This document shows positions 1 through 43,310 of a stretch of DNA of 64,000 nucleotides, one piece after another (within the stretch, counting starts at the first letter, position 1; each line of letters starts with the position of its first letter). Source of the DNA: Bryopsis sp. KO-2023 (Eukaryota > Chlorophyta > Ulvophyceae > Bryopsidales > Bryopsidaceae); NCBI GenBank assembly GCA_030272585.1, contig BSYQ01000003.1:7874001-7938000 (forward strand). The letters run 5' to 3'. The position numbers and the translations under genes are program-made. Under the pieces are notes generated by a model. It was not told where the DNA came from. It saw only the letters and a list, made by a program, of their open reading frames with translations, and made no database searches.

Positions 1-616
1 GCTTATCAGCGGCGCCCGAAGCAGACGCTGGCCCAGGCGCTCGCGAACACTTCCGCGACGCAACTGGCAGTCGAGTGGCGCGCATTGGCCAACCGGCATC
101 TCGAACCCGCGACACAAGCGACCTACCAGTCGAGGATTCGCCAGTACGTGCGCACGTGCGAGCTGCTGGAACTTCCTCCGTTTCCGCCCACGCTCGACAC
201 CTTGGCGTCGTGGATTGCGACCCAGACGCGAATGCAGCTGCAATTTGGGACCATCGACACCGGGGTCACGGCGCTGGTCGACCTGTGCGCGACACAGGGC
301 TGGCCGTCACCACGTGATCACCCCCTCCTGCGTCGCGTTCTCAAAGGAGCTCGGAAAACGCTCGGTGACGGAACCGTCAACGCAAAGGACCCTTTTTCGC
401 TGGACCATCTCCAGCGGATGGTAACGGTCGCCCGCGCAACCCAGCTCGAGCGCGGTCAGCGCGATGCCGTCGCGATGGCGTTGGCCTTTTTCGGCCTCCT
501 ACGCGTCTCAGAAATGTGCGCTTTGCGGGTTGCGGACGTCGTTTTCCATACCCCTGAGGGGTTCGAGTTTTTCTTACCAAAGTCAAAAACCGACTCTATG
601 CGCCGGGGTGCCTGGG
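1..616 (+). pseudogene. Tyrosine recombinase of a DIRS-order element, 5' segment (interrupted; start lies outside the window)
   Basis: The frame is open from base 1, so the true start is upstream. The translation is a phage-integrase-type tyrosine recombinase: an N-terminal SAM-like DNA-binding half, then the start of the catalytic half with GLLRVSE (catalytic Arg I, about 510) and SKTD. Such enzymes integrate DIRS/PAT/Ngaro retroelements through a circular DNA intermediate. The gene is cut after base 616 by element A; the next segment is 26483-26629 and the last is 31342-31571. The three pieces total 993 bases (331 codons) in one frame once insertions and duplicated target sites are removed. 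A Crypton is the alternative, but the split repeat downstream favours a PAT/Ngaro retroelement. Confidence 0.85.
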
Positions 617-1146
617 TGTAACCCCAAACCACGTCGCCTCCACCGTTTTCGTCACACTGGTCAAGGCCAGAGTGCTATCGGGTAGAGGAGGGGTAGTTAG
701 GACAGTCCAGCCACAGTCTGGAAGTAGCAGTCCAGCTGCGGAAATGACGAGGTTGGACGGTCCTAGGGGTAGAGACTAAGGGAAGGGATTGAGGGAGGTT
801 AGGAAGATCAGCTAGGCTTGATAGGTTAGGTAGTCCCCATCAGTAGGTGGGATCCTAGGTGATCAGTGGGACTAGGGTGAGTCAGGCGGCAGCCTATTTA
901 ATGGCTGATCTTAGGTTATTGGATATTCTGGGTGAGGCTTTTGTGTTTATTCGAGTTTGGACCTTTATTGATTATTGTAAGAAAGCTTGTGTGAAGAGTC
1001 CTGAGTAAGGTGCCTTGCAAAGGCCGTGTGATCAACTTCAAGAGGGGCTGTCCCCACTTCCGCCGTTCCCGTTCTGCAGAAACGCCATCACCACCGTTAA
1101 GTACGGCTGCAGGGGTGACCCCAGAGGTCAAGGTTACCCTATTTGT
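617..1146 (+). repeat. Element A 5' LTR (530 bp)
   Basis: It begins TGTAACCCC right after the target duplication and ends at the primer-binding site. A TATA-like ctattta (894-900) is the only promoter-like motif I see. The 3' LTR at 25940-26476 matches it but has seven more bases (GGTTACA) at its outer end. Confidence 0.93.
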
Positions 1147-1159
1147 TGGTTTCGGAGCC
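1147..1159 (+). other. Element A primer-binding site
   Basis: TGGTTTCGGAGCC lies directly after the 5' LTR, starting with the TGG that pairs with a tRNA CCA end. It differs from the plant initiator-Met type (TGGTATCAGAGC). B and C have the same 13 bases; D1 and D2 share the first 12. Confidence 0.75.
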
Positions 1160-1178
1160 AGGTTGCGCACACTTTTGA

Positions 1179-9043: not shown

Positions 9044-9580
9044 TGTAACCACAAATAGGGTAACCTTGACCGCTGGGGTCACCCCTGCAGCCGTACTTAA
9101 CGGTGGTGATGGCGTTTCTACAGAACGGGAACGGCGGAAGTGGGGACAGCCCCTCTTGAACTTGATCACACGGCCTTTGCGAGGCACCTTACTCAGGACT
9201 CTTCACACAAGCTTTCTTACAACGATCAATAAAGGTCCAAACTCGAATAAACACAAAAGCCTCACCCAGAATGTCCAATAACCTAAGATCAGCCATTAAA
9301 TAGGCTGCCGCCTGACTCACCCTAGTCCCACTGATCACCTAGGATCCCACCTACTGATGGGGACTACCCAACCTATCAAGCCTAGCTGATCTTCCTAACC
9401 TCCCTCAATCCCTTCCCTTAGTCTCTACCCCTAGGACCGTCCAACCTAGTCATTTCCGCAGCTGGACTGCTACTTCCAGACTGTGGCTGGACTGTCCTAA
9501 CTACCCCTCCTCTACCCGATAGCACTCTGGCCTTGGCCAGTGTGACGAAATCGGTGGAGGCGACGTGGTTTGGGGTTACA
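9044..9580 (-). repeat. Element B 3' LTR (537 bp)
   Basis: On the minus strand it runs from TGTAACCCC at 9580 to GGTTACA at 9044. The outer seven bases are missing from B's 5' LTR. Its inner edge sits in the palindrome GGTTACAGCTGTAACC (9574-9589). Confidence 0.92.
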
Positions 9581-9589
9581 GCTGTAACC

Positions 9590-10649: not shown

Positions 10650-13600
10650 TTAGGCTGTCGGCGGCGGCGGTGGTGGTGGTGGTGGCGGTCCTCCCTGACC
10701 TCCGCGACAGTGCTCCGGCGGCTCTCCTCCTGCTGCTGGATCGTCTGGACCTTCGTCTTCTCGGGGCCGCTTGGCTGCGCTGCCTCTCTCCAGGGGGATC
10801 TCGTCAGGGAACGGCCGACGGAGCTCGGGGTATCGCCCCCACATCTCCGCCGTTAGCGTGCGCCAGTATGCCGTCGTCGGGAAGTTTCGGGCTTCTGCTT
10901 CGCATCGCCAGCAGCGATTTTGGAAAACCTCGTCGGCGGTGATGCCAGGGCGATACTCCGGGATCCATGAAAGGTCCGCCGCCGGGATGTCCCCCAGCGT
11001 GAGTTCGCGTCCGCGGCAGAAGAGGTCGGGGCGCCGCAAGGCCACGAGGATGGCCAACACATCCTTCGCACAAGCTTTCCAGGATTTCCCAAAGCGATCC
11101 CTCGAGCAGTGTCTGTGATGCCCGGGTGTATTGGCAAACTTACAGGCGGTTGGGATGTACGCGTTGGAGCCGGGCGGTTTTGAACAACGGCTGCAACGCG
11201 TACCCATCCCTGGAGTGCCGCCGCCGCTGCTCTGGCCGTGCTGTCCCTTTCCATCACCCGGTGCTGTTGCGTCCGTGGGCCCTTCGTCCTCGCCAGTCTC
11301 CGTATCCGTTCCCGAAAAATCCAAGACGGCCTTCTTGAGCTTCCCTTTTCCTGAGGCGAGTCGAGTGGTTGGGCCCTTCCTTGGCGCTCCTCCCTTCGAT
11401 GCTGGAGTCCCGCTTTGGCTTAATCCCGGGGTAGTTCCTGTGGGGGTTCCTGCTCCAAAGGTGAATGGGGCCTGGACATTCTGGAACATCTGGAAGGGGC
11501 GTGGTGGCCGAGGTCCTGCCATGGGTGGAGCTGGTGGTCTGATTGGCCCTGGTGGCAACAAGACGAGTTGGGAGGCTGGAGGCACTTCCTCCGTCGTTGG
11601 GGGTTCAGCTGGTGGATCCTGGGATCCTACTTGCTCCGCTTGGTGGGCAAATGAAACTGGATCAGGTTCCTCCACACGAGGCTGTGACACCGTCTCCTCC
11701 CATCCTCTCCGGTAGTGCATCCCAGGCAGCGGCTGGTGTCCCGCCAACGATCGATCTCTTTCCTCCCTCTGCACCTCCGCCCATTCCTGAGCCGACAGTG
11801 GCTGTGGATGTGGTGGGCTTCCTGGGATCACATCAGCTGGAGCTGGGGGTTCATCCTCTGGTGTTGTTGGCTGCTCCTCCCCCACTTTCTCCCCAGTCCC
11901 TGCTTCACTCCCAACCAATCCTGAGCCTTCCCCCACTGTGGTTTCCTCATGCTGCCCCCCTCCTGTGGCTGCTGTTGCTGCTGTGGCTGCTGTTGCTGCT
12001 GTGGCTGCTGTTGCTGCTGTTGATCCCTCCAGACCTCCTTGTCCAGGCTGATGGAGTGGCTGTTCTCCTGTTAATGTTGCTGTAGCTTCCTCCAAGTCTT
12101 CTGGACCCAACTGAGGAGGTGGCTTTCCTCCTTCCCCAATGTCCCCAGCCTTGAGGCTTTTCACCGTTTTCTTTCGTGGGTGGCTGCTTCGGGGGTGTAG
12201 CGATCCTTTTTCCTTCCCCGTCAGTTCCGCGATCCGATCCTTCTGGCGATCCAAGAGGTCCGCCATCTTCTTCATCCGCCTCCGTTGTTGCTCCCATTGG
12301 TTCCACGGCACCATGTCGCAGGTAGCCTGCGACCCCTGATCCCGCTGCTCTTCTTCGTCGGTTTGGGTGGCAACATTCTGGGTTTCCGGCTGGGTCATAT
12401 GGCTCGCAAGGATCGCCGCAAAGTACGCGGCCACTGCATCAATTTGCAGCTCCACCGGCAGATTTCGGAAGGTGGCGGGGAGTTCTACTGGTGGAGGTTG
12501 TGATGGCCCGGCTGCTGGAAAAGCGATCTCCACCATGGGCTCGCTGACCAACTCCTCCACTGTCTCCTCCTCCTGCAATCCATATTCCGCCTCCAAATCT
12601 GCTGTATCGAGGCTGCCGGATTCAGCCATGGGTGTGTCGTCATTTCCTTGCCCTGGTTGATTTCCGCCACCCCTTTGCGATGATCCACTGCCCCCTCGCT
12701 CTGGCTGATCGCCGCTACCCTCACGTGCGCCACCGATTGGCCCTACTCCGCCTCCGCCACTACTCAACACGCCACATATAATGGCCAGGAAACATACGAA
12801 TCGGAACATGGTCGCTGGGCTCTCGAAAAGTGCAAATTCGTCTAACAATTCGCCGCCGCTGTTGGGTTTTTCTGCACTTCCGCCACGAGACTCCTCCACG
12901 TCCGTCCTCTCAATGAGGCGACACTGTACCCTGTCCACAGTCCATGCATCCCTTGGGGTCTGACCCACCTTTACCAAATCCCCACGTAATTCCTGGACCA
13001 TCCATGGCCCCTGATTAAATTCCATCTCCTTGGGGTGGTAGGGGAACCGAATTGAGCACAACATCACCATGTCCCCTACTTGCAGTTCTGCTGGAGCTTT
13101 ACCCCGCCTGATCGTCTCCCAAAGGTGCCCCAGCTGCTGTTTGACCCTTGCTTTCTGCAAGGCTCTGGCAAGACTCCCCTCCTGAGCTTTCCTCTCCTCA
13201 TTCATAAACCTCAGGGTGACCTGGCGCTGCAGCTCCACTGCATCTGCCCGGCGTAACTCCCCTCGCAATTCTGCTAAGCGTTCATTTCGTTTGGTTTTGG
13301 TGGAAAACTCCCGGAAAAACAATGCCTTGGCGGGGCTGAGTCCGGTGGAGGTGTGTTCCCTGGTGTTGATAGCATAAATCACCTCCTGCAGTTTCTCCGG
13401 CCATTGGGGCGTGATCCCGCCGCCACACTCCCTCCGCAATAGTTGTTGTATCTCCCGGTTCATTCTTTCGACCAGCCCATTGGTCTCCGGGTGGTATGGG
13501 CGTCCTTTCCTCAGCTGGACTCCCCACTGCTGTAGAAGTTCTGCCACCTCTCCTTCGAATTCACTCCCGTTGTCTGTGATGATGGAGGCGGGCGGTCCAT

Positions 13601-14159
13601 ATGGATGGAACACCGAGGCCTTCAGCCACGCCGCCACCGCAGAACTCCTCTTACTCGTTAATGCCCCGGCGATCGTCCACTTGGTGAAGTAGTCTACCAT
13701 GACTATCACATATTTTTCTCCCGTTCCGGTGGTGGGCAGGGTGATCAAGTCCATACCCAGTCTCTCCCAGGCTCTTAACGGTATATGCTGCCTTAATGGA
13801 TGTCGCTCCTTAGGCGCTTTCTGACTTCTTCTGCAGCTGTGGCACGTCTGCCACACTTGTTCTACCTCTTTCCTTATATATGGCCACCAGTATCTCTGCT
13901 GCACTTTCTGGCACAATCCTCTGCCGCCGATGTGCGCATTTTCTCTGTGGACTTTTCGGACCACAGTTGGCCTTTGCTCCTCTTTTGGCACCTCTAGCCA
14001 TTCTCCTTGTTTACTCAAGCACTTGAGTGGGTGTAGATCTCCTCCCACCCATCGATATCTCTGACCCCTTTTTCGCACCCTCGCTTTTGCTTGTTTCTCA
14101 GCGGGTAATGCCGTTGTTTTCAAGAATTCCATCAGTTCCGCATCCGCCCATGGATCCAT
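10650..14159 (-). CDS. Element B integrase with a long C-terminal extension
   Basis: The start chosen is the ATG at 14159. Residues 1-430 are a gypsy integrase: HHCC zinc domain, core with DLITL, TDNG and the Glu in NGLVERMNRE, then a GPY/F-like module. About 740 residues unknown in ordinary integrases follow: a hydrophobic stretch starting MFRFVCFLAIICGVL (ATG at 12809), an acidic and Gly/Pro-rich linker with an Ala-Ala-Thr run, and a Cys/His domain (C-x2-C-x13-C-x7-H-H-x-H-C, later C-x2-C; about 10800-11205). It ends in a polyproline run. This is the intact form of A's broken gene; the tail's function is unknown. Confidence 0.88.
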   Translation of the reverse strand: MDPWADAELMEFLKTTALPAEKQAKARVRKRGQRYRWVGGDLHPLKCLSKQGEWLEVPKEEQRPTVVRKVHRENAHIGGRGLCQKVQQRYWWPYIRKEVEQVWQTCHSCRRSQKAPKERHPLRQHIPLRAWERLGMDLITLPTTGTGEKYVIVMVDYFTKWTIAGALTSKRSSAVAAWLKASVFHPYGPPASIITDNGSEFEGEVAELLQQWGVQLRKGRPYHPETNGLVERMNREIQQLLRRECGGGITPQWPEKLQEVIYAINTREHTSTGLSPAKALFFREFSTKTKRNERLAELRGELRRADAVELQRQVTLRFMNEERKAQEGSLARALQKARVKQQLGHLWETIRRGKAPAELQVGDMVMLCSIRFPYHPKEMEFNQGPWMVQELRGDLVKVGQTPRDAWTVDRVQCRLIERTDVEESRGGSAEKPNSGGELLDEFALFESPATMFRFVCFLAIICGVLSSGGGGVGPIGGAREGSGDQPERGGSGSSQRGGGNQPGQGNDDTPMAESGSLDTADLEAEYGLQEEETVEELVSEPMVEIAFPAAGPSQPPPVELPATFRNLPVELQIDAVAAYFAAILASHMTQPETQNVATQTDEEEQRDQGSQATCDMVPWNQWEQQRRRMKKMADLLDRQKDRIAELTGKEKGSLHPRSSHPRKKTVKSLKAGDIGEGGKPPPQLGPEDLEEATATLTGEQPLHQPGQGGLEGSTAATAATAATAATAATAATGGGQHEETTVGEGSGLVGSEAGTGEKVGEEQPTTPEDEPPAPADVIPGSPPHPQPLSAQEWAEVQREERDRSLAGHQPLPGMHYRRGWEETVSQPRVEEPDPVSFAHQAEQVGSQDPPAEPPTTEEVPPASQLVLLPPGPIRPPAPPMAGPRPPRPFQMFQNVQAPFTFGAGTPTGTTPGLSQSGTPASKGGAPRKGPTTRLASGKGKLKKAVLDFSGTDTETGEDEGPTDATAPGDGKGQHGQSSGGGTPGMGTRCSRCSKPPGSNAYIPTACKFANTPGHHRHCSRDRFGKSWKACAKDVLAILVALRRPDLFCRGRELTLGDIPAADLSWIPEYRPGITADEVFQNRCWRCEAEARNFPTTAYWRTLTAEMWGRYPELRRPFPDEIPLERGSAAKRPREDEGPDDPAAGGEPPEHCRGGQGGPPPPPPPPPPTA

Positions 14160-14345
14160 TCTCCTTTGACCTCCTCCTTTGATCACGGCAGCAACTGTGG
14201 CAAATCACGAAGTCCGAACGGTAACGGTGTTCCACGCTACTTTTTCGGGGTTCGTGTGGCCTTGCCTTCAGTCTAGAAGTACCCCCATTGGACCAACAAT
14301 GGTTCCTCTTTTTCCAGCCATGATCTTGAGATCCCCGGAAGATCC

Positions 14346-16184
14346 TTATGGACGAAGTGCTGTGGATCCACTGACTATCGGATGATCCAGTGGAACTGGA
14401 AGCCTGGTCAGTGCATCCGCATTCGCATTGCTTTTTCCAGCGCGGAACTCAATCCTGAAATCAAACTCCTGTAGGCGGAGTGCCCACCTCATCAGTTTTC
14501 CCGTCAGTTTAGTACCTGTCATCAACCACTGTAATGCCCGCTGGTCTGTCTGCAGCACAAATTCTGTGCCATAGATGTATGGCCTGAATAGGGTGCAAGC
14601 CCATACCACTGCCAGGCACTCCCCCTCCACTACCGAATAGTTCTTCTCCGCTGGGTTGAGTCTTTTGCTGGCATAGGCTACCACATGCTCTCTCCCTTGC
14701 TCATCCTTCTGGCAGAGTACTGCCCCCACAGCCTGGCTGCTCCAGTCTGTCTGCAGAGTGTATGGTAGGTGTGGCTGTGGTGGAGCCAGGACTGGTTGAT
14801 CGGTTATGCTTTTCTTCAGCCTCTCAAATGCTTGTTGTTGTCGTTCCCTCCATTCAAATGGCACATCCTTCTTCAACAACTCCGTCAGAGGTGCAGCGAT
14901 CCTTGCATAGTCGCGCACAAATCTCCTGTAGTAAGAAGTAAGGCCAAGGAAGGACCTCAGAGTAGACACATCCACCGGTGGCTCCTGCAGCTCCACTGTG
15001 GCTACCTTCTTCGGATTCATCTTGATTTCCCCTTTTCCCACGATGTGGCCCAAGTAGAGTAGCTCCTCAAACCCGAAGTCCGATTTCCTCGGGCTGATCC
15101 TCAGGTTGGCCTCCTTCAGCCGCTGCAGCACCTCTGCCAAGATCTCCTGATGCTTTTCCCAAGTCTCCGCATAGATGATGATATCATCCAAATACACGAT
15201 CACCCCCTTCCACAGCATAGGTCCCAGTACCTCGTTCATCATCCTTTGGAATGTCGCTGGGGCGTTACTGAGCCCGAAGGGCATCACCACGAACTCATAC
15301 AGCCCCTCCTGTGTGATGAAGGCCGTTTTCTCCGCGGAGGCAGTGCTCATCCTGACCTGCCAATACCCTGATCTCAAATCCAAAGCGGTGAAGAACTTGG
15401 CCTCCGAGAACTGGTTGATCGCATCCTCTATCCTCGGGAGAGGAAAGCTATCTCGGGTGGTCACCTTGTTGAGCTTGCGGTAATCAACACAGAACCGCAC
15501 CGACCCATCTGGCTTTGGAACCAAGACGATCGGTGAGGCCCACGGGGACTTTGACTTCCGCACCACTCCATCCAGGAGCATCCTCGCCACCTCCGATTTG
15601 ACTACCTGGTTCTCCGCAAAACTGAACCGGTAGGGATTCTGCCTGATGGGGGGATGATCTCCGGTGGGGATCTCGTGGTATAAAATGTTGGTTTGCCCGA
15701 CTTGATCCGAGGACCAAGCACAGGCATCGGGGTACTGCTGCAGAAGCTCCAGCAGCTCTTTTCTTTGGTGGGGGGTAAGATGGGGACTAATTTTCAGTTC
15801 TTCCAGTTTTTCTCTAAGTGACACCTTTTTCTCTTCCCTTTCCTTTTCTGTGGCAAACGTTTTATTTTCTACATCAGAAGTCCCAAGGGGAACCACCCCT
15901 GCCCAAATCTGATTTTCCTGCAGCTGAACTGCTGCCTGTCCCATTTCCCTCAACCCAAACCTTTCTTTTCTTTCTCCTTTTTCTTTTCTTTCCTCTTCTT
16001 TTTCTGTTTCTTTGGCTTTCCTTTCCCTTGAATTTTCTTTTCCCTTTTTTTCTTTTTCTTCTCCCATTCCCTCCCTCATAAGGATTTCTGCCTCCACTGT
16101 TCTGCTGTGGTTTAAGCATTGCATGGCCCATGAGTCCGGCCACAGACTCCTGGCCCTTTCTACTTCTTCCGTTTGGCGTTGCAT
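14346..16184 (-). CDS. pol: Element B pol: reverse transcriptase and RNase H (612 aa)
   Basis: It is nearly identical to A's pol. ATG at 16184; reverse transcriptase with VDYRKLN, GYWQ, PFGLSNAP and YLDD; RNase H with TDWSSQAVGAV and a closing ADALTRLP. About 190 bases separate its stop from the integrase ATG, so integrase is not fused to it. No frameshift or stop is seen. Confidence 0.95.
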   Translation of the reverse strand: MQRQTEEVERARSLWPDSWAMQCLNHSRTVEAEILMREGMGEEKEKKGKENSRERKAKETEKEEERKEKGERKERFGLREMGQAAVQLQENQIWAGVVPLGTSDVENKTFATEKEREEKKVSLREKLEELKISPHLTPHQRKELLELLQQYPDACAWSSDQVGQTNILYHEIPTGDHPPIRQNPYRFSFAENQVVKSEVARMLLDGVVRKSKSPWASPIVLVPKPDGSVRFCVDYRKLNKVTTRDSFPLPRIEDAINQFSEAKFFTALDLRSGYWQVRMSTASAEKTAFITQEGLYEFVVMPFGLSNAPATFQRMMNEVLGPMLWKGVIVYLDDIIIYAETWEKHQEILAEVLQRLKEANLRISPRKSDFGFEELLYLGHIVGKGEIKMNPKKVATVELQEPPVDVSTLRSFLGLTSYYRRFVRDYARIAAPLTELLKKDVPFEWRERQQQAFERLKKSITDQPVLAPPQPHLPYTLQTDWSSQAVGAVLCQKDEQGREHVVAYASKRLNPAEKNYSVVEGECLAVVWACTLFRPYIYGTEFVLQTDQRALQWLMTGTKLTGKLMRWALRLQEFDFRIEFRAGKSNANADALTRLPVPLDHPIVSGSTALRP

Positions 16185-16357
16185 TCTCGCTTCCTGCTCC
16201 TTGATCCTCCTGCCTGCTCGACGCCATTGTTCTCGTTTACCCGCACGCTTGCCACGCCGCCCTCTTCCCCTTTTCCCTTTATTCCCCTTTGTGGGACCGA
16301 ACCACCTCCGCCACCCCTTCAGGTGTCGCCGAAGAAGGACGTCGGTGGCCGGCCCAC

Positions 16358-19300
16358 TTAAAAATCCGAGGAGTCGTAGCTCACCACCCTTGGTGGCTCA
16401 CTCCTCCCCTCCCCGCCAGCTGCGGCTGCTGTGGAGGTCCCCCCTCCAGTCTCGCCACCCTCCACTGGCCTCCACCTCTGGGCCTCCCTGCGGAAGTGCC
16501 CCAACATCTCCTCCGACTCCTCCCTCTGTGCGCTCGTCACGGCGTCGCACCTTCGGAAATACTCCCTTGTGATCGCATCCCTTTTTCTCGGCTCTCCCTC
16601 ACATCGCAACCTTTCGTCGTGGATCTTTTTGAACTCCCTCTTTGTGCTCCCATGGCGCCTCCCCCTGGTGTCCAGTATTTCTGCCTCCTGGTGATACAGA
16701 TGTGTGGCCGCCGCCTCACTCATCCCCTTTCCCCGCCGAATAGCGCAGCACTCCTGCAGCACTGCCTTCTGGCGCTTGGTGACCCACAGAGGAGGGGGTT
16801 GAGGAACGTAGAGGTAGGGCTGGATAAACCCATCTGGTCGGCGTTCCCCTGGTGGCGTTTGGCTCGTCATTGAATCCTGCTGTGGCTGCTTTCCAGTGGG
16901 GGCTGCTGGCGGTTCTGGGGCGGCGCTCGTTTCTTCGATCGATCGGAGGGTTTGGTAAACTGCGACGACTGCAGCACTCTCAGGCGTCGTTGTGTGAAGG
17001 AACTCGATGGGTACGTGACCTACTCGCCGTCCTGCCACACACGGAGTGAGCCGCTTGAAACCAAAGTGGATCTCTGTACCGGTATCCACCAACCACGGGG
17101 TCCCAATGATCAGGGATAGATGTTCGTTCTCCACTACATGGCACGGTACGATCTGTCTGCATTGTCCAAGGGCGATGGGCAGGGCAGGGATGTACCCCAG
17201 AGCTTGCCTAGTCTCGCCATTGCAATCCCTGTACCTCCCCTTCGGTGCCTCCATCAGGTGGGTCAACCCTGTCCGTGCTAGGAGTTGGGCCGATATCACA
17301 CAAGCACTCGCCCCCGTATCAATGATGGCCCCTGGTACCTTGGTCTCCATGATCTTGGCTGTGGCGGTGGTGACTGCATATGGGCTGGGCTTGCCCACTC
17401 CCTCCACAGTAGTGATTGCAGGTACTTTAGCCATGGGCACCCTCAGTGCCTTCAACCATGCATCGATCAACTCCGGGTGGTGCTGGCACAGACTCGCCAC
17501 TGGAACCTCCGTCATCAGACCCTCCACAAACTTTTTGGCTTCTGTTGCGGTAAACATTTTCTTCTCCTTTGGCTCTCCCGCCGTCTTTTTCCCCATTTTC
17601 TTTTTCTTGGTCATGGTATTCCGTGGAGACGGTGGCCGCATGGGTGGTGGGAACATCGGTGGTAACATAACTGGTCTCGATCCTTGTGGCTCATCTTGTG
17701 GCTTCGGCACATCTTCTGGTTCAGGCACAGACTTTGTCTTCTCCTCCTGCTGTGGGGGTTCTGGTTCCTCCTTTGGTTCTTCCATCACAACTTCCTCCCC
17801 AGCATCTGCTCGAGGTTCCGAAGGTATTGGGCTCGTGTCCATGGGGGTTCCTCCACTGCCTCCCTGGTCCCCGTCCAAGCCTCCGTGGTCAATATCCATT
17901 TCAGAGTACCAGATTGGTGCCAGATCCTCCTCGGGTCCTTCTGTGGTGGTTGCCCCAGGGTCCGTTTGCTCAAAGTCCATCACCAGGTGGTCCCCCATTT
18001 CCGCCTGGAAGAAGTTTAAATGTTCAGGACACTGGCTGGCATAATGGCCAAGGCGCGAGCAGTGCCAACATCTGACTTTGTTCACATCATAACGCCCTCC
18101 TCCCCAGCCTCTTCCTCCATTGCCATTGTTCCGAGTCCCCCGTCCTCTGCCTCCTCCATTTCCCCAGCCATTGCCTCTGTAGGCCCCTTGCCCTCTGCCT
18201 CCATTGATTGGCACTTGGTTTGCTCCGGTACCCCCAGTGTTTCCATAGTTCCCTCCTCCTGGCTCTGGCACATTAGGCTGTCTCACATCCGCCACCATTC
18301 CGGATAGAGTGGAGATCATACTTTTGAGTTCGCCAAACTGCTGCCCGGAGGTTCTCACATGCTGCTCCACTCCTCTGAGCCGCGAGTCCGTAGTGGTTTG
18401 GTGTTCGCGCACCTCCTTCCTCAAATTCTCGATTTGTTCGTTCACCCGCTGATCCATAATATTTACTTCCGCCAGGACTGGCTCCATCACTGCTTGGTCC
18501 TGCAGTTCCTCCAGTGTGTTGATCGTTGTCTTCCGCTTTGGCCCCGGCCGCACTTGTCTTTCTTCGATCTGTCTGGCTCTTGCCACGGCTTCATCCAGGG
18601 TATCCCCTGTAAAACCCAGCAGGATGGGGGCAAGATCCTCCCGCACTCCATTCTTAAACAATTGCAGTAGAAGTTCGTCAGCCACGGCTGGACTGCCTGG
18701 GGCTCGACTCGCATTGAGTTGTTGCTGCATCTGGGAGAGTGCCGAAGCGTATTCCCCCACAGTTTCGTCATTCTTTTGTTTTCGTTCCAAGATACGGGCC
18801 ACCAACGTCGCTGGCGCCACTCCAAACCTTGCCAACATGCCCATTTGTAACTCCTGCCATGTCCTTTCTGGGTTCGGTAGCCCTCCCACATGTGTAGGGT
18901 GTCTGGCCGTCCAATTGTCCACCCATGATCGCGCTTTCCCCGTCGTATACAGGACGAGTCTCTCAATTCTCTGGTCCTCATGGTCCGGCACCGCTGGTGG
19001 TACACTCCACCCTGAGCCTGTGGCGAGAATCTCGTATGACCGTATCCAGGTGGCCACATCTTCCTTCTCTGCCCCAGTGAAGGCTGTTAACTGACTGTTG
19101 ATCAGCCTGTTTGGAGGTCCTCTGGGGTGGGCCATAGCACCGACTCCGCCTGGTGGGTGTGGTGGAGGAGGTGGTGGAGGAGGTGGTGGAGGGACTGGTG
19201 GTGGACCAGGTGGTACAGGTGGAACGGGTGGAGGAACAGGTGGGACTGGTGGTTGGAGATAGGGAAGTCCAACCTCAAAGGCAAATGGGTTCAGCGGGGG

Positions 19301-21424: not shown

Positions 21425-21446
21425 AGCTCAAAAGTGTGCGCACCCT

Positions 21447-21459
21447 GGCTCCGAAACCA
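21447..21459 (-). other. Element B primer-binding site
   Basis: The minus strand reads TGGTTTCGGAGCC directly after the 5' LTR, identical to A. Confidence 0.75.
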
Positions 21460-21989
21460 ACAAATAGGGTAACCTTGACCGCTGGGGTCACCCCTGCAGC
21501 CGTACTTAACGGTGGTGATGGCGTTTCTACAGAACGGGAACGGCGGAAGTGGGGACAGCCCCTCTTGAACTTGATCACACGGCCTTTGCGAGGCACCTTA
21601 CTCAGGACTCTTCACACAAGCTTTCTTACAACGATCAATAAAGGTCCAAACTCGAATAAACACAAAAGCCTCACCCAGAATGTCCAATAACCTAAGATCA
21701 GCCATTAAATAGGCTGCCGCCTGACTCACCCTAGTCCCACTGATCACCTAGGATCCCACCTACTGATGGGGACTACCCAACCTATCAAGCCTAGCTGATC
21801 TTCCTAACCTCCCTCAATCCCTTCCCTTAGTCTCTACCCCTAGGACCGTCCAACCTAGTCATTTCCGCAGCTGGACTGCTACTTCCAGACTGTGGCTGGA
21901 CTGTCCTAACTACCCCTCCTCTACCCGATAGCACTCTGGCCTTGGCCAGTGTGACGAAATCGGTGGAGGCGACGTGGTTTGGGGTTACA
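21460..21989 (-). repeat. Element B 5' LTR (530 bp)
   Basis: It starts TGTAACCCC at 21989 and ends at the primer-binding site. It matches the 3' LTR except that the outer GGTTACA is absent. Confidence 0.92.
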
Positions 21990-21995
21990 AACGGG

Positions 21996-24893: not shown

Positions 24894-25939
24894 AAAGGGG
24901 GGAAGGTGAAAAAAAAAAAAAAGAAAAAGGAGGGAAAATGGGGGAGGGGTGACTGTTTGTTTTTGTTTTTATTGTTTTTATTTGTTTTTGTTTTATTGGT
25001 TTTCATGAGAATGGCTATGGAGACAGCCTTCTCAACGAAAAGTAGTAGCTGAACTGGGTTGGATCAGGAAGAATGGAAAAGAAAAGGAAGTGAGAAAGAG
25101 AGAGTAAGAGTTCAGAGTTCAGGGCTCTCTTTTTGATGACTTTTTGTTTTTGCTTTTATTGTTTTTGTTTTTGTTTTATTGGTTTTCATGAGAATGGCTA
25201 TAGAGACAGCCTTCTCAAAGAAAAGTAGTAGCTGAACTGGATTGGACCAGTAAGAATGGAAAAGAAAAGGAAGTGAGGAAGAGGGAGTAAGAGTCCAGAG
25301 GTCAGGGTTCTTTCTTAAATCTTTTTGATACATGATTTCAAGTTGCTATGAGGGTTAGAGATCAGACTGTCTGCTGCTGAAGTGGGCCGGTAGTAAAACA
25401 CTGTGGCAGGAGTGGGTGTCTGATGGGTTAGGTATCTTTTTGGGGGAAGGCATGAAAAAGGGGGGGGGGGGGGGAATAAACAAACAGAAACCTCTGGTTA
25501 TTGGACCTGAAAAAAAAAAAAAAAAAAAAAAGAGAACAAGCCTACTGGTTGAGAAGGCAGGTTGCTCAGTATTTCCAGGGATGAAGTGAACAAGCTGACA
25601 GAACAGCTGTGGATTGTGTTGTGCTTGTGTTATCAAGGTTAACAGACATTTTTCCTGTTGTGTAGAAAGTGATAATTGAAAAAAAAAAAAAAAAAACTTT
25701 TATTTTGGATCCCAACATACTGACACTTAGCACTTGTTCTGTAGTCCTGGGGACACTGCATCTGTGGACTTAGTGGTTGAATAGGCAGTTAGGTCTTTCT
25801 ATTCACCACTTCTCCAACAGTTCTGACCCCAGTTATCTTGAAAATGGAAGTCTAGACACAGAAACAGTTCAGAAAAGAGGGGAGGGGATGTTAAAACTTT
25901 TGGGGACAAAAGTTCAGGGAGAAGGGGAGTGGTTACAGC
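24894..25939 (+). other. Element A 3' untranslated region
   Basis: No gene is seen. It has A tracts (24908-24923, about 25511-25531, 25679-25697), a G tract (25459-25474), and two tandem copies of about 175 bp (roughly 24955-25130 and 25135-25310), the same duplication as in B. It ends in purine-rich agggagaaggggagt followed by GGTTACAGC and the 3' LTR, a plausible polypurine tract. Confidence 0.75.
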
Positions 25940-25946
25940 TGTAACC
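25931..25946. promoter_or_regulatory. 16-bp palindrome at the inner edge of element A's 3' LTR
   Basis: GGTTACAGCTGTAACC equals its own reverse complement. Its right half (TGTAACC) begins the LTR; its left half repeats the last seven bases of the integrated element, which the 5' LTR lacks. The same 16 bases occur in B (9574-9589) and C (27098-27113). Confidence 0.85.
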
Positions 25947-26476
25947 CCAAACCACGTCGCCTCCACCGTTTTCGTCACACTGGTCAAGGCCAGAGTGCTA
26001 TCGGGTAGAGGAGGGGTAGTTAGGACAGTCCAGCCACAGTCTGGAAGTAGCAGTCCAGCTGCGGAAATGACGAGGTTGGACGGTCCTAGGGGTAGAGACT
26101 AAGGGAAGGGATTGAGGGAGGTTAGGAAGATCAGCTAGGCTTGATAGGTTAGGTAGTCCCCATCAGTAGGTGGGATCCTAGGTGATCAGTGGGACTAGGG
26201 TGAGTCAGGCGGCAGCCTATTTAATGGCTGATCTTAGGTTATTGGATATTCTGGGTGAGGCTTTTGTGTTTATTCGAGTTTGGACCTTTATTGATTATTG
26301 TAAGAAAGCTTGTGTGAAGAGTCCTGAGTAAGGTGCCTTGCAAAGGCCGTGTGATCAACTTCAAGAGGGGCTGTCCCCACTTCCGCCGTTCCCGTTCTGC
26401 AGAAACGCCATCACCACCGTTAAGTACGGCTGCAGGGGTGACCCCAGAGGTCAAGGTTACCCTATTTGTGGTTACA
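25940..26476 (+). repeat. Element A 3' LTR (537 bp)
   Basis: I see no mismatch to the 5' LTR over the shared 530 bases. It then has GGTTACA before the target duplication cctggg. Confidence 0.93.
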
Positions 26477-26482
26477 CCTGGG

Positions 26483-26629
26483 TGAAGATCAGTCGCCTTC
26501 CCACGTCCTGTGCGGGGGTCTGCCCAGATAGACTTTTGAGGGAAATTTGGCCGACGAACAAGTCGTCATTTTTATTTCCCATGACGACACGCCTAGACAC
26601 GGCCATCACAACGCGCGTGTTTCGTCAGC
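26483..26629 (+). pseudogene. Tyrosine recombinase, middle segment
   Basis: These 147 bases lie between elements A and C and continue the YR frame exactly (the codon gtg is completed across the A insertion). They encode the part between the SKTD region and the C-terminal catalytic box. The segment ends with gtcagc, the target duplicated by C. Confidence 0.82.
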
Positions 26630-27104
26630 TGTAACCCCAAATAACGTCGTCTCTCCCTATTAGGTCACCCCTGCGGAGGGACTGATCGTGGGGAGAACGG
26701 AAAAGAGCCTAAGGGCTCGTGGTTGAACGTGGTAGTGTGCAAAGGTCGGATAGGAGAAGACAAAGACTCAAACAAAAAGAGAGCTTACATCGAATATGTT
26801 CAGAGGTGCTTTATAAATACAAAAACTGTAGCTTCAGCCCCAATGGACTTCAGCTACAACCTAGCTACCTCTTTGACCTATAATAACCCTTACTAACCCT
26901 TATTGAACCTAACAAATGGACGGTCTAACTACTACCCAACTGCCCTTAAAAACCTTGACAAATCATTATAAAAAACCCTGCTGTGGCAGGACTGCTCCTT
27001 CACCACAATCATTACTGCACTGCTGCCACAGTCCCAGTTCTGTGGCAGCACTCCTCCTGTGGAGGTGACCAAATCGGTTTAAGGCGACGTGGTTTGGGGT
27101 TACA
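26630..27104 (-). repeat. Element C 3' LTR (475 bp)
   Basis: It carries a clear TATA-like motif (minus strand TATTTATAAA, 26811-26820). It is seven bases longer than the 5' LTR because of the outer GGTTACA. Confidence 0.92.
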
Positions 27105-28602
27105 GCTGTAACCCACTTCGTTTCCACTGTGATGTACTCCGAATTTCATACCATCTACTCAAATGATCAGCCACAAAATTGGCTTTCCCATCTATGTGTT
27201 GTACGGAGATACTCGAACAACCGCTGAACTGCAAAATTTCTTTGATCCCCGTTACTGCCCTCAAAGTTCTCAAATCCTTAATCGGTGCTGCCTCTTTCCC
27301 CTCTTGGGTGAGGTGAGCCCATAAACTTTTCACTGCCGCCCAATTATCGGAAACAATTTGAACGGCAGTTCCCCTCCACAAATCTGTGGGTATTTCCTTA
27401 ACGGCGCTCATAGCTGCCAACACTTCCCCCAAAAAACTTGAATGTTGTCCACCTATTTTTCCGTGTCCGAGGTATAAAATCCTTCCCGAACCATCTGTCA
27501 AAATATATCCAAAATACTCTGATGTATCAATAGAAGCCCAATCAACAAACAACTTCCGCTGAGTATCGCCGGCAGAAAATGCACGGCAATAACAACGACT
27601 CAGCCATTGTGATACCTTACTTTGTAGTTCCGCCTTCACTTCCTGTGGCGGTACTTGATTGGCTTCCATCTTGGATAGCAAATGTTGCATGTCCCACTCC
27701 AGAGTCGAGTTTTTGAAAGCGTTCAGCAAACCGCGGAGCTGCTGAATCTCCCTCAGTTCCGCCGTTCTAACCAGTTTAGCAATAGTTTCATTCACTTTTT
27801 CCCAAGGTATATCCGGATGAAACTTTCCTTGTTGAATGTGGAACCCGAGAAACTTCACCTCAGTTCCACTGACGATTTTCCTTTGGTTGATCTGAAGTCC
27901 ATATTCCTTGCAACGCGAAACTATTTTACCGAAGTTCTGGAAGCACTCCTCCACAGTAGCGCCGCCAATGAGCAGATCATCCATGTAGCGGCGGAACTCC
28001 TCCAAACCTTCAAAGACGCGGCACATCTTGTCATTGAATACTCGAACGGACCACGAAGTACCGTGTGGAATGGTACTGTTGACGAACTCCTTGCTTCCCA
28101 CTTTAAACGCCGTTAGCGCTTTGACCTCCTTCTTGATCGGCACTTTATTGTATGCCTTGGCTATGTCCACGACGATGAAGTACTTCCACTTGCTCGGAAC
28201 GGATCGCACGAGTCTTCTTGCGTCTTGAATGCCCGGTTGGTGCTCATCACTGCCGTAGGTATTGAGCTTCCTGAAGTCTATGATCGGCCTCGGTCCCTTT
28301 CTCCTTTCGCAGTAGCTTATCTGGGATGGATTCCAGTATACGCCGCGAGGGTAGTCCTTCCGTTGCAACGGTTCTATGAACCCGAGCTCCACTTGTTCCT
28401 TTAGCCACTCCTTCACTTGTTCTTCGGACAACCTCTGGTCTTGGATACTCCTTTGAGGGACGTTCGATTTCGGCGGCTCTCTCCTATAGCCGCACTCCTC
28501 CATCGAGACTGCCATTTCCTCCATTTTCGTTTGCTTCGGAGGTATGATCGGGCCAAATACCTCCGGGTGTTTCCTCACCATGTCCTTTAGTGCTTCTGCC
28601 AT
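27100..28602 (-). CDS. pol: Element C reverse transcriptase and RNase H (500 aa)
   Basis: ATG at 28602. The reverse transcriptase is divergent: RPIIDFRKLN, VVDIAKAYNKVP (first catalytic Asp) and YMDD near residue 207, instead of the YLDD/FIDD of A, F and D. RNase H follows with VDWASIDTSEYFGY, a Glu in GEVLAA, an Asp in VSDNWAA, and ADHLSR at the end. The stop codon (27100-27102) lies within the palindrome at the LTR edge. No HHCC or DDE integrase motifs are present. The lineage is LTR-retrotransposon-like; I cannot place it further. Confidence 0.88.
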   Translation of the reverse strand: MAEALKDMVRKHPEVFGPIIPPKQTKMEEMAVSMEECGYRREPPKSNVPQRSIQDQRLSEEQVKEWLKEQVELGFIEPLQRKDYPRGVYWNPSQISYCERRKGPRPIIDFRKLNTYGSDEHQPGIQDARRLVRSVPSKWKYFIVVDIAKAYNKVPIKKEVKALTAFKVGSKEFVNSTIPHGTSWSVRVFNDKMCRVFEGLEEFRRYMDDLLIGGATVEECFQNFGKIVSRCKEYGLQINQRKIVSGTEVKFLGFHIQQGKFHPDIPWEKVNETIAKLVRTAELREIQQLRGLLNAFKNSTLEWDMQHLLSKMEANQVPPQEVKAELQSKVSQWLSRCYCRAFSAGDTQRKLFVDWASIDTSEYFGYILTDGSGRILYLGHGKIGGQHSSFLGEVLAAMSAVKEIPTDLWRGTAVQIVSDNWAAVKSLWAHLTQEGKEAAPIKDLRTLRAVTGIKEILQFSGCSSISVQHIDGKANFVADHLSRWYEIRSTSQWKRSGLQL

Positions 28603-28664
28603 AGCTTCTTTGTCTTGTTCGGATCTAGTTAGGCCCGTCCGAAGTCCCCTTTCGACGGGCCTTT

Positions 28665-30647
28665 CTAGTTTGATACCTCCCGGTCATTGAATTTGACGGG
28701 TCCCTCGTGCACGAAAGTCGCAACCTTGTAGTTGCTCGGCAATTGGACGGGCAGGTCATTCCAATTGCTGATTTGGACGCGGAGGTACTGACCCTTGTAA
28801 TTCAATCCTGCATGAATGGCGATACTGCCATTCGGAACGACTGGACTGAGCTCGATCTCCTTGGATGTCTTGATCGGTATCCAGATCGTGGAGAGTGAAT
28901 GCGGCTTGAGCACCAAGTTTCTCCCCAGAGGTACCGAATAACGATCCTTTGCCACGTTGATGATCTTGAGATGCCTTTTGGCAGAAGTCAGCTCCACACT
29001 CTCTCCGTCCGTTTTCTCCCTTTCTGGAAGCACTACTTCCTCAGGCAGTCTTGTGACCATGCATTGGAGAGTTTTTCCAGATCCTATGTGGATCTTCTTC
29101 CTTCGAACGTCAATCACGGCGTTCAAGGAGTTGAGAATAGGCATGCCGACCAACAGCTCGTATCCGGGCTCCTTCATCACGTAGAAATCCGCAGAAACCT
29201 TCTTCCCCTCGGTTCCTATCTTGATGGAAGAAATGCTGCCTTCTGTCTCCACAGTCCTGCCATCAGCCGTTCGAATTTTACTGGGTGCTCCTTCTTGCTG
29301 TGGCGAGACTCCCAATCTTTTTGCCAGATCCGTGGAAATCACGTTGACGGCTGCCCCCGTATCGATGATAGCAAACTCTTCCACACTTTCTGCGGCTGTA
29401 GACACGAGAGACATCTTGGTCGTCAGGAGTCCTGCTGATTTTCCCACAGTCAAAACTTCCTTGTAAGTTTTGGTCTTCAAGATCCCTCCGGTTTCAGGAC
29501 TCTTGGAACTCCTTGTTTGCTTTGGTCCACCGGTTGGATTCCCGCGACGGTACTGCGTTCTCTCGGACTTCTTCCATTTCCTCGTCGGCACTTTTGCCAC
29601 AGGCACGGCAGAAATAGTCCCGACATAGTTTGTCTCGGGTTGATAGAGATCTTCTTCTTCCAATCCTTCAAACTCGTTATTGTCTTCGAATTGGGGTTCA
29701 TCGAATTGAACGGTTCTCGTAGGCATTCCACGATACGGCGTTCCTCCTCTTCTGAATCCACCTCCGTTGTTCCTGAATCCGCCGTTGCCTCCGCTTCCGC
29801 CGCCGCCGCTCTTTGCCAACCAGCTCAAAAAACCTTTGAATCTTCGATCTCTCTTACTCAATTGAGTGATGAAAAACTTGAGAGAGCCAAACGGTACCTC
29901 TTTCAGCTTTTGTTGCCAATCGGTCTGCGGAAGTTCTCCTTGTCTCACCGGCGCTTCCGTTTCTGCAGTTGCTGTAGTCTCGCCTACCGCTCCAATGTCC
30001 ATTGCGTCCCCTCCAGTGTGGGCGCTGGTATCAACCAAACGAAAGACGTTGATCAACCATTCCTTTGCGTTTTGGATCACATCCTTGTAGTTAATGGTCG
30101 GCATTCCCGCGATACCGTTTCTGCAGTCCTTCGGAAGGAGTTTGAAGAAGATGTCCTTGACTCTTGTATCTTCGACATCGGCTTCTACCGCCAGAGCTTC
30201 CTGGCGAAAGTGCTCCAGCCAAACTAGCCATGTTTGGCCTTTCTTCTTGACACACTTCCTCAATATTGCTTCTTTCTCCGCGGGAGACTCGTTTATGATC
30301 CTCGAGTGCACCAGATATCCAACCAAGTTCATCTTCAAATTGTCGATCGTGGCGTTGGTCGCCGGAGGATCTCTTCTACCCCTGTCATGGGTTCCTGGCG
30401 GATATGCTGCGTCAAAACTGGCAACTGTGTGTGGAGACACTTCGTAGATAATCGGAAGGATATTCTCCCCGGCTCCGTCGGGTGAATAATGGTCCACCAA
30501 ACACGCACAGAACTGCGGAAATGCTGCATATAAGTGTGCTCTTTGGAAAACATATCTGAAGTTCCTGGAAGTCACCGTCTCAAAGCGAGAGATTTTGTCC
30601 AACGGAGCTGCCGGCAGTGGCGGCGGTAATGGCATTGGTGCTGCCAT
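28665..30647 (-). CDS. gag: Element C gag and protease
   Basis: The first in-frame ATG is at 30647 (MAAPMPLPPP), but the frame stays open upstream to a TAG directly after the primer-binding site, giving about 67 more ATG-less codons. The N-terminal half is capsid-like (FPQFCACLVDHY, WLVWLEHFRQEAL, LPKDCRNGI). A Gly/Arg-rich region (GGGGSGGNGGFRNNGGGFRR) replaces the zinc knuckle. The protease has IDTGAAVNVIS and LLVGMPIL. Its stop is 62 bases before the pol ATG. It differs clearly from A/B gag in sequence. Confidence 0.83.
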   Translation of the reverse strand: MAAPMPLPPPLPAAPLDKISRFETVTSRNFRYVFQRAHLYAAFPQFCACLVDHYSPDGAGENILPIIYEVSPHTVASFDAAYPPGTHDRGRRDPPATNATIDNLKMNLVGYLVHSRIINESPAEKEAILRKCVKKKGQTWLVWLEHFRQEALAVEADVEDTRVKDIFFKLLPKDCRNGIAGMPTINYKDVIQNAKEWLINVFRLVDTSAHTGGDAMDIGAVGETTATAETEAPVRQGELPQTDWQQKLKEVPFGSLKFFITQLSKRDRRFKGFLSWLAKSGGGGSGGNGGFRNNGGGFRRGGTPYRGMPTRTVQFDEPQFEDNNEFEGLEEEDLYQPETNYVGTISAVPVAKVPTRKWKKSERTQYRRGNPTGGPKQTRSSKSPETGGILKTKTYKEVLTVGKSAGLLTTKMSLVSTAAESVEEFAIIDTGAAVNVISTDLAKRLGVSPQQEGAPSKIRTADGRTVETEGSISSIKIGTEGKKVSADFYVMKEPGYELLVGMPILNSLNAVIDVRRKKIHIGSGKTLQCMVTRLPEEVVLPEREKTDGESVELTSAKRHLKIINVAKDRYSVPLGRNLVLKPHSLSTIWIPIKTSKEIELSPVVPNGSIAIHAGLNYKGQYLRVQISNWNDLPVQLPSNYKVATFVHEGPVKFNDREVSN

Positions 30648-30854
30648 GATTCCAGCGGAACTACTGCTACCCGATGAATCCTCCGAGCTTGAGCTTTCAG
30701 TTGTGTCCAAATGCAGTTCTTCCGGCGGTTGTAGTCCTTCCTCCTTGAAGAGCTCTCTATATCTCTTCCTTAGATCTCGATTTGATTCGAGATACTCGAG
30801 TAGCTCCTTGGATAACCACGGTGGGGTCGACCCCTCAGCCAGATTTTCGACCTA

Positions 30855-30867
30855 GGCTCCGAAACCA
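30855..30867 (-). other. Element C primer-binding site
   Basis: The minus strand reads TGGTTTCGGAGCC, directly after the 5' LTR and followed by TAG. It is identical to A/B although the internal genes are unrelated in detail. Confidence 0.75.
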
Positions 30868-31335
30868 CCAAATAACGTCGTCTCTCCCTATTAGGTCACC
30901 CCTGCGGAGGGACTGATCGTGGGGAGAACGGAAAAGAGCCTAAGGGCTCGTGGTTGAACGTGGTAGTGTGCAAAGGTCGGATAGGAGAAGACAAAGACTC
31001 AAACAAAAAGAGAGCTTACATCGAATATGTTCAGAGGTGCTTTATAAATACAAAAACTGTAGCTTCAGCCCCAATGGACTTCAGCTACAACCTAGCTACC
31101 TCTTTGACCTATAATAACCCTTACTAACCCTTATTGAACCTAACAAATGGACGGTCTAACTACTACCCAACTGCCCTTAAAAACCTTGACAAATCATTAT
31201 AAAAAACCCTGCTGTGGCAGGACTGCTCCTTCACCACAATCATTACTGCACTGCTGCCACAGTCCCAGTTCTGTGGCAGCACTCCTCCTGTGGAGGTGAC
31301 CAAATCGGTTTAAGGCGACGTGGTTTGGGGTTACA
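30868..31335 (-). repeat. Element C 5' LTR (468 bp)
   Basis: It begins TGTAACCCC at 31335 and ends at the primer-binding site. The TATA-like motif is at 31041-31050 on the minus strand. Confidence 0.92.
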
Positions 31336-31341
31336 GTCAGC

Positions 31342-32106: not shown

Positions 32107-32570
32107 CAGTGATAGGACTTTACGGTTACGGTCACCGTAACCGTACCGTAACGCCGTAACCGGACCGTAACCGGAGTACAATTTTCGTCGGAAAATCGTA
32201 CTTTTACGGCCGTAACCGTAGCTCCGTACCGCTCCGTACCGCTCCGTACCGGACCGTAATGACCGTAACGGCCGTACCAACCGTAAACCATAGAAAGTGA
32301 CCCCCGCGGGGTCCCGCGATTCCAAAGGAACCCAGGGGGATTCGAACCTGCGACCCTACAGACTGCAGCCTAACGCTTTAGCACTGAACCACACTACTTC
32401 ACGATGATTTAGGGCCTGCCGTAGCTATACCGTACCTGTTCCGTACCGTAAAAACAGCATATTACTCCGGTTACGGTACGGAATTACGGCCGTAGTACGG
32501 TGACCGTAACCCGACCGTAACCGGACCGGACCGGAGCCGGACCAAAAAATCGGCCCAAGTCCTATCTCTG
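32107..32570. mobile_element. hAT-type miniature element, copy 3 (464 bp), with tRNA-like core
   Basis: Inverted ends CAGTGATAGGACTT and AAGTCCTATCTCTG, 8-bp target duplication ggtgagag (32099-32106 and 32571-32578), no coding capacity. The arms are built from repeats of CCGTAAC/CCGTACC. The centre carries, on the minus strand, a tRNA-like segment with a B box and an A-box-like stretch (about 32305-32400). It is more diverged than the other two copies, so probably older. It sits at the A2/B2 junction of the split repeat. Confidence 0.9.
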
Positions 32571-42000: not shown

Positions 42001-43310
42001 GCTCTGGGTACAGAGATTCGTATGAGTACAGCTTACCACCCTCAAACGGATGGGCAGAGTGAGGTTACCATACGTACTTTGGAAAATTTCCTGAGGCCAT
42101 ATGCTGAGAGGTATCCCCATAAGTGGGTTGAGTATTTACCTACAGCAGAGTTTGCAGCAAACAATGCAGTGAATGCGAGTACAGGGTTCGCACCTGCATA
42201 TTTGATGTATGGGTACCATCCAGAAACACCAAACATTGGTGGGACGGCAACGCAATTTCAAGTGGAAGCAGTTAAGACAATGGTAGCACGGATGGCACAG
42301 GACTTAGATACCGCAAAAGCATATTACTCTAGAGCACAACACAGAATGTGTGTGAGTGCAAACAAGAAGAGGAAAGATATTGCTTTTGAGAAAGGGGATA
42401 AAGTCCTGATAAAAAGCCGTTTTATTCCGTTGGCTGCTTTGAACAAAGTGAGTCCAAAACTGCGCCGTCGATTTGTGGGTCCCTTTGAAATTGTGGAGAA
42501 AATATCAAAGGTGGCTTACAGAGTTCAACTTCCGGAAACATGGCTCATTCACCCAGTGTTTCATGTTTCTAAGTTCAAGCGTTATCACCAGAGATAGGAC
42601 TTTACGGTTACGGTCACCGTAACCGGACCGTAACCACCGTAACCGGACCGTAACCGGAGTACAATTTTCGTCAGAAAATCGTACTTTTACGGCCGTAACC
42701 GTAGCACCGTACCACTCCGTACCGCTCCGTACCGGACCGTAACGACCGTAACGGCCGTAACAACCGTAAACCGTAGAAAGTGACCCCCGCAGGGTCCCGC
42801 GATTCCAAAGGAACCCAGGGGAATTCGAACCCGCGACCCTACTGACTGCAGCCTAACGCTTTACCAATGAACCACGCTACTTCACGGTGATTTAGGGCCT
42901 ACCGTAGTTATACCGTACCTGTTCCGTACCGTAAAAACAACATATTACTCCGGTTACGGTACGGAGTTACGGCCGTAGTACGGTGACCGTAACCCGACCG
43001 TAACCGGACCGGACCGGAGTCGGACCAAAAATTTGGCCCAAGTCCTATCTCTGGTTATCACGCCTCGAGTGATAACAGCAGGCAGATACAACCTCCAGAA
43101 GGAGAGTTGATTGGTAGCGAAGTAGAGTATGAGGTCGAAAATATCCTAAGGGCTAGAGGTAAACGCAACCGCGAATACCTAGTGCTGTGGAAAGGATACG
43201 ATCTACTTGACGCTACTTGGGAACCTGAAGCTAATCTGGTTAACGCACCAGATATACTTCGCGCATTTAAAGAGAAAGAAAGAAAAGAGTTGCAGAAAGG
43301 AAGAGAATAG
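39097..43310 (+). pseudogene. pol: D1 pol: protease, reverse transcriptase, RNase H, integrase, chromodomain (cut by a hAT element)
   Basis: Without the hAT element at 42589-43053 it encodes 1246 residues, as in D2. Protease: FIDCGSTANYI. Reverse transcriptase: VDYRWINK, LDLRSGYWQ, PFGLTNCPAQ and FIDD at residues 472-475. RNase H: TDASNEAIGAVL and ADALSR. Integrase: HHCC (H...H, CPVCQ), then DLVTDLP, SDRDPRF and the Glu in DGQSEVTIR. The chromodomain lies in 43107-43300 (YEVENILRARG...YLVLWKGYDLLDATWEP), the module chromoviruses use to target modified chromatin. The interruption lies between integrase and chromodomain. Confidence 0.93.
42589..43053. mobile_element. hAT-type miniature element, copy 2 (465 bp), with tRNA-like core
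   Basis: It has the same ends as copy 1 and is nearly identical to it. The target duplication is gttatcac (42581-42588 and 43054-43061); the D2 pol gene shows the empty site. Both copies in one D1 element suggest a recent burst. Confidence 0.95.

Follow-up and report, generated by a model that had tools for sequence, protein, structure and literature searches.

Right-end extensions of LTR retrotransposons in Bryopsis sp. KO-2023 suggest that cDNA ends are joined before insertion

Integration of retroviruses and LTR retrotransposons is generally described as using linear cDNA, and two-LTR circles are generally described as dead ends. The window analyzed here (the whole stretch of 64,000 nucleotides, G000:C3:7874001-7938000 within the 91-Mb genome of Bryopsis sp. 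KO-2023) contains three elements, A, B, and C, that raise the question of how the right LTR can come to be longer than the left one. An initial annotation of the sequence had described in each of them a 3' LTR consisting of the 5' LTR plus GGTTACA, a 5' LTR that stops at the primer-binding site (PBS) and lacks these bases, and an inner palindrome, GGTTACAGCTGTAACC. All three descriptions hold exactly for A, B, and C, and the extension is followed by a perfect 6-bp target site duplication (TSD; Table 1). The two LTRs of each element show 0 differences in the window comparison, a PBS beginning TGGTTTCGGAGC adjoins each 5' LTR, and GGTTACAGC immediately precedes each 3' LTR. The 16-bp palindrome is present 3 times in the window versus 0 times in 100 shuffles. 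Almost every copy that we examined has the extension on its right side, in letters that seem to derive from the left end of the same DNA, which suggests that the ends are joined before insertion.

Table 1. Positions in the window of the terminal and coding features of elements A, B, and C
Element	Feature	Position	Strand	Basis
A	TSD CCTGGG	611..616 and 26477..26482	+	
A	5' LTR, 530 bp, ending TTTGT right at the PBS	617..1146	+	
A	Primer-binding site TGGTTTCGGAGCCAGG	1147..1162	+	
A	Purine-rich tract ahead of 3' LTR, ..GGGGAGT	25914..25930	+	
A	Inner palindrome GGTTACAGCTGTAACC; predicted plus-strand origin 25931	25931..25946	+	
A	3' LTR, part identical to 5' LTR	25940..26469	+	
A	Right-end extension GGTTACA	26470..26476	+	
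B	TSD CCCGTT (element strand)	9038-9043 and 21990-21995		
B	Right-end extension GGTTACA	9044..9050	-	
B	3' LTR, identical to B 5' LTR	9051..9580	-	
B	Inner palindrome	9574..9589	-	
B	ORF with integrase (H2C2 + rve)	10650..14204	-	Pfam
B	ORF encoding RT and RNase H	14346..16397	-	Pfam
B	PBS	21444-21459	-	
B	5' LTR	21460..21989	-	
C	TSD GCTGAC	26624-26629 and 31336-31341		
C	Right-end extension GGTTACA	26630..26636	-	
C	3' LTR, 468 bp, identical to C 5' LTR	26637..27104	-	
C	Inner palindrome	27098..27113	-	
C	RT ORF	27114..28683	-	Pfam
C	Gag-like ORF with aspartic protease	28665..30851	-	Pfam
C	PBS	30852-30867	-	
C	5' LTR, 468 bp	30868..31335	-	

Because no GGTTACA stands between U5 and the PBS in the 5' LTR, the RNA lacks it there as well. 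From the established pathway of reverse transcription, we infer that the right cDNA end must therefore stop at TTTGT and that every cycle would have to restore the extension. Neither the host nor the primer site is the cause, since two other elements in the same window with the same PBS core, D1 and D2, have ordinary ends, as previously noted (LTR ..ATCA/AT/TGGTTTCGGAGC; inner side ..CGTA/TGTTAG). D1 and D2 resemble the A-type elements in their 12-base PBS core, TGGTTTCGGAGC, and in their H2C2 plus rve integrase, and D2 additionally encodes a chromodomain. In contrast to the A-type elements, their LTRs end in CA two bases ahead of the PBS, the right end is equal on both LTRs, and the TSDs are 5 bp (GCCGT and GCCAC), which is what the ordinary linear route produces.

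The domain order of A and B is that of Ty3/Gypsy elements (Metaviridae). In Pfam searches, RVT_1 and RT_RNaseH of B are found in one ORF and Integrase_H2C2 and rve in the next, and the ORF coordinates place RT-RNase H upstream of the integrase. The LTRs of A and B have TG..CA ends, and a PBS (beginning TGG) and a purine tract are present. Unlike Ty3/Gypsy elements, however, they have a right LTR end that exceeds what the template allows and a 6-bp TSD, and they appear to require joined ends. Among named proteins, the best match to the B integrase comes from Rhizophagus irregularis (35% identity across 68% of the query), too remote a relationship for further conclusions. Neither of the two C ORFs has an integrase detectable by Pfam, and both an RT and an aspartic protease are present. 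C thus shows the pattern of an integrase-less element mobilized in trans, with the ends and TSD length of an integrase-bearing family, and is an apparent parasite that keeps its own RT. Since C shares its palindrome and TSD length with A and has no integrase that we could find, it is probably mobilized by an integrase from A-like elements. A search of genome_contigs found no relative of the C RT, and the C LTR had no match in plasmids.

Across the 91-Mb genome, the exact palindrome occurs 123 times, versus 0 times for a reversed control pattern. Outer ends could be parsed for 86 of 100 palindromes listed, the parse demanding an intact LTR end. The other 14 are six copies of family G, which has a shorter LTR, two tandem dimers (a middle LTR, then a PBS), three sites in one rearranged C9 locus, one rearranged G copy, one broken-off LTR, and one member of a further family. 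These 14 sites, and one C-type copy whose right end lacks GGTTACA, count against end joining. A palindrome spacer other than GC was seen at one site (AC at C7:5444980). A pattern for the 5' LTR/PBS boundary, which by design detects only 5' ends without the extension, had 124 matches at ≤1 mismatch, and the 100 listed are all exact. For 26 of 30 5' LTRs fetched, the same 6-bp TSD is present on a 3' LTR that we read (23 at first and 3 after adding loci L001 to L015 and dropping the distance limit), and, the extension aside, 22 of the 23 compared pairs show no LTR difference. Of the remaining four, one lies in the middle of a tandem dimer, one can be matched to a candidate partner that shares 5 of the 6 TSD bases (the two LTRs measure 561 and 565 bp), and two have no partner among the 3' ends read.

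The alignment of outer and junction ends across family copies, proposed in the initial annotation and applied here to copies fetched from across the genome, confines the extension to the 3' LTR in 26 of 26 paired elements. A 5' LTR with GGTTACA ahead of the PBS, named there as the observation that would speak against the model, was not found: the PBS follows 0 of the 86 parsed outer GGTTACA ends, and GGTTACA with TGGTTTCGG within 8 bases is absent from the 181 sequences (364,424 bases) examined. The annotation's view that ordinary linear ends are insufficient is also supported, since a right end derived from the U5/PBS boundary and shared by both LTRs is not what we found in the pairs, in families G and H, or in the 86 outer ends. 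Palindrome matches in 4 viral contigs have unrelated flanks.

If the extension comes from the left cDNA end, then families with another polypurine tract should differ in its letters, and they do. Family G has an LTR of 281 bp in the three copies measured, and its 5' ends read TTTTGGG/TGGTTTC in 9 of 9 cases (one of these, at C1:296321, is the rearranged copy L021). Its inner side is ..AAAA/GGTTACAGC in all four 3' copies read and in L021, and the bases found ahead of GGTTAC at its 3' ends are A (7/9), AA (1/9), and GA (1/9). In family H, the tract and inner junction are GGAGGGAGAG/ATGGGTTACAGC, ending GAGAG/ATGGGTTACAGC, the 5' LTR boundary is CCCTATT/TGGTTTCGGAGC, and the 3' LTR ends CCCTATT + ATG + GGTTACA, each in 4 of 4 copies; the same 6-bp TSD is present on both sides of all four (ACCGAC, CTCAGC, GGCGTC, and AGTATC). 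Among 41 joints of A (tract ..GGGGAGT), 34 are empty, 5 have T, and 2 have A. The C/F set has 53 joints. None of the 13 C-type joints (GACGTC..) contains an insert; the 40 F-type joints divide into 28 empty, 10 with T, 1 with C, and 1 with G.

Taken over the G, A, C/F, and H sets, the nonempty joints equal the end of their own family's tract in 27 of 32 cases; in 200,000 shuffles, the maximum was 23, and none reached 27. The 5 inserts at odds with the tract are A, A, C, G, and GA. Three more inserts lie outside the 32: the tract does not account for +G (L083, an A copy) or +T (L153, a C copy); +GT (L097), read from the outer side only, would fit it. The +T of A and F has two possible sources, the last base of the tract or a retained tRNA A. 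G and H are thus the main evidence for the covariation, with 12 matches among 13 ends. The right-end extension is best explained as having been taken from the left cDNA end, so that an LTR-LTR junction would precede integration; the tract dependence is indirect evidence, from sequence, that the integrated ends derive from such a joint. Families G and H, with their differing polypurine tracts, thus bear out the central prediction of the initial annotation, that the start of the plus strand supplies the extension. Its more specific assumption, that the plus strand starts at GGTTACAGC, probably stands mainly for A/F and C, but not for G, where the start would mostly be AGG.., or for H, where it would be ATGGG...

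The joint differs among insertions even when the LTR does not. Twelve A copies with identical last 75 LTR bases and 12 different flanks have joints of +0 (nine copies), +A (two copies), and +T (one copy), and an F haplotype represented by four copies shows +0 (2), +C (1), and +T (1). Since bases are added per copy (T, A, C, or G) even to identical LTR ends, the joint is made anew at each insertion. Where an addition has no counterpart in the tract, it resembles untemplated nucleotides at a junction of ends. A single locus also has the predicted raw cDNA ends: in a scrambled C-type element (C9:4150650-4152850, L154), the breakpoints coincide with the predicted cDNA termini, GGTTACAGC on the left and TTTGT on the right. 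There, GGTTACAGC and its LTR directly follow LTR base 134, with the tract missing; on the opposite side, a left end in inverted orientation halts at exactly the same base and is followed by RT ORF sequence with 97.7% identity to residues 395 to 523 of the C ORF. The right LTR end, TTTGT, runs into TTGCTC without GGTTACA. L154 also has an inverted 40-base copy of U3 at an LTR end, resembling a product of autointegration or template jumping.

These observations are very probably accounted for by a route in which linear cDNA is made, its ends are joined, the resulting palindrome is cut, and insertion follows, with a circle as the simplest joined form. Ordinary linear cDNA would have a right end at the PBS boundary (..TTTGT), without a terminal CA, and a left end that starts just past the polypurine tract, at least 9 bases outside the TG (GGTTACAGC/TGTAACC). 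Joining of the two, most simply in a two-LTR circle, would give ..TTTGT[0-2 nt]GGTTACAGCTGTAACC.., and the joint ..TTTGTGGTTACAGCTGTAACC.. would present two inverted CA ends around GC. Integrase, presumably the element's own in A and B, would cut both strands of the palindrome after CA (CA^GC^TG), so that each cut end would have a recessed 3' CA-OH and a 2-nt 5' overhang, the same arrangement as in a retroviral end after normal processing. Strand transfer at a 6-bp stagger would then yield TGTAACC...GGTTACA, with GC lost.

The joined ends in the circle-junction model of the initial annotation are therefore supported, but the circle is not the only form that would serve, since a circle, a linear concatemer, and an end jump by RT would leave identical sequence. 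In the last of these, RT would jump from ..TTTGT onto the minus-strand 3' end at the left end of the same or another cDNA, adding GGTTACAGC.., at times with an untemplated base, after which integrase would trim to CA on a linear molecule or concatemer. The A, C, and G additions foreign to the tract suit RT jumps as well as they suit end joining, integration needs GGTTACA on the plus strand alone, and loss of bases from the LTR end is not evident in the 86 parsed ends (a parse that requires an intact LTR end). Such a jump calls for an extra RT step in every cycle, and nothing decisive speaks against it; we consider it unlikely, and it discards only the closed circle while retaining the joined ends.

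The other explanations do without a joint. Direct copying from read-through RNA of a 3' LTR right end that already carries GGTTACA would agree with the single joint type in 4 of 4 H copies and 7 of 9 G copies. However, identical LTR ends carry different joints, the 5' LTRs that we read have no extension, and copying gives no reason for the joint to match the tract of its own family; on the haplotypes with mixed joints, we rejected this explanation, which is very unlikely. An origin of the extension from the tRNA primer, retained or copied at the 5' end of the minus strand, is suggested by the resemblance of GGTT in the A family to the PBS start, TGGTT, by the alignment of the two A-family ends with one gap, and by the +T, which could be a retained tRNA A. 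The letters nevertheless disagree (PBS TGGTTTCGG versus GGTTACA), and G has A and H has ATG, both under a PBS that begins TGGTTTC, so a tRNA origin was rejected on G and H and must be considered most improbable. Nothing was found in favor of chance, assembly error, or a target preference for GGTTACA, and we give this next to no credence: there were 0 shuffle matches, 78 different 6-mers follow the 86 outer ends, and the TSDs lie outside the extension in 26 paired and 4 H elements.

The proposed joining of the ends can be compared with other systems. A palindromic LTR-LTR junction was reportedly identified in 1984 as an integration substrate of spleen necrosis virus, a model since given up for retroviruses. 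The likeness lies in the palindromic junction; for that virus, however, linear DNA is said to give integrated ends as well, whereas here linear ends do not yield the integrated sequence. Foamy-virus and HIV-1 integrases, according to reports of 2005 and 2019, are said to cleave two-LTR circle junctions, which resembles the cutting proposed here. That activity is reportedly optional or confined to the laboratory; in the natural families described here, it would be the usual way of integrating. Like DIRS-like elements, the families described here would have a circular intermediate and have an internal copy of terminal sequence; unlike DIRS-like elements, which have a tyrosine recombinase and no TSD, A and B have an rve integrase and a 6-bp TSD. 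Assignment to the DIRS order was rejected, since a Pfam scan of four ORFs from B and C detected no tyrosine recombinase domain and 6-bp TSDs are present.

In several families, 86 of 86 standard outer ends parsed would record a joined-end intermediate in integrated sequence. It seems reasonably probable that these LTR retrotransposon families, one of them integrase-less, integrate only from a palindromic LTR-LTR junction, with a half site, GGTTACAGC, kept outside the left LTR, ligation completing the site, and circularization built into the life cycle. If so, end joining is a step of that cycle, the presence of integrase-site sequence outside the LTR is explained, and the families offer a natural system for a direct test of the circle-junction question. 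A leftover LTR-LTR junction, TATTTGNGGTTACAGCTGTAACC, a pattern that represents insert-free joints of some families only, was found 0 times in the genome; we counted this against the proposal, and it would be neutral if junctions are always cut. TTTGTGGTTACAGC was not seen among 100 listed of the 125 places matching a pattern with any base after TTTG. In each of two tandem dimers (G000:C3:701041-725462, flanked as a whole by a single TSD, CACGAT, and C6:4709046), the middle LTR common to both units precedes a PBS; these dimers are neutral because unequal recombination explains them.

Pattern matches were obtained in a genome search for a tRNA gene corresponding to the PBS, and ARAGORN found no tRNA in the four PBS-pattern regions read. 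At L174 and L175, the motif ..GCTCCGAAACCA is the PBS complement with an encoded CCA, and two 19-base forms of it recur in the genome; ARAGORN calls no tRNA at this motif, which is perhaps a SINE or the PBS of another LTR family read on the opposite strand. The gag-like ORFs of A and B contain in-register 90-bp repeats (window 1865-3064 and 19558-20757), evident as 11 overlapping copies of 300 nt offset by 90 bp. At 10650-14204 (-) and 48429-50942 (-), the integrase is followed by long extensions with a Cys/His-rich terminal stretch (CSRCSKPPGS...CKFANTPGHHRHCS), which was read by eye in A and B and, in a diverged form, in the element near 48 to 51 kb. A 465-bp element with inverted ends, CAGAGATAGGACTT.., is present at 37590-38054, 42589-43053, and 32107-32570 of the window, with 8-bp duplications at two of these sites (CCTGCGGA and GTTATCAC), and it resembles a hAT-type MITE.
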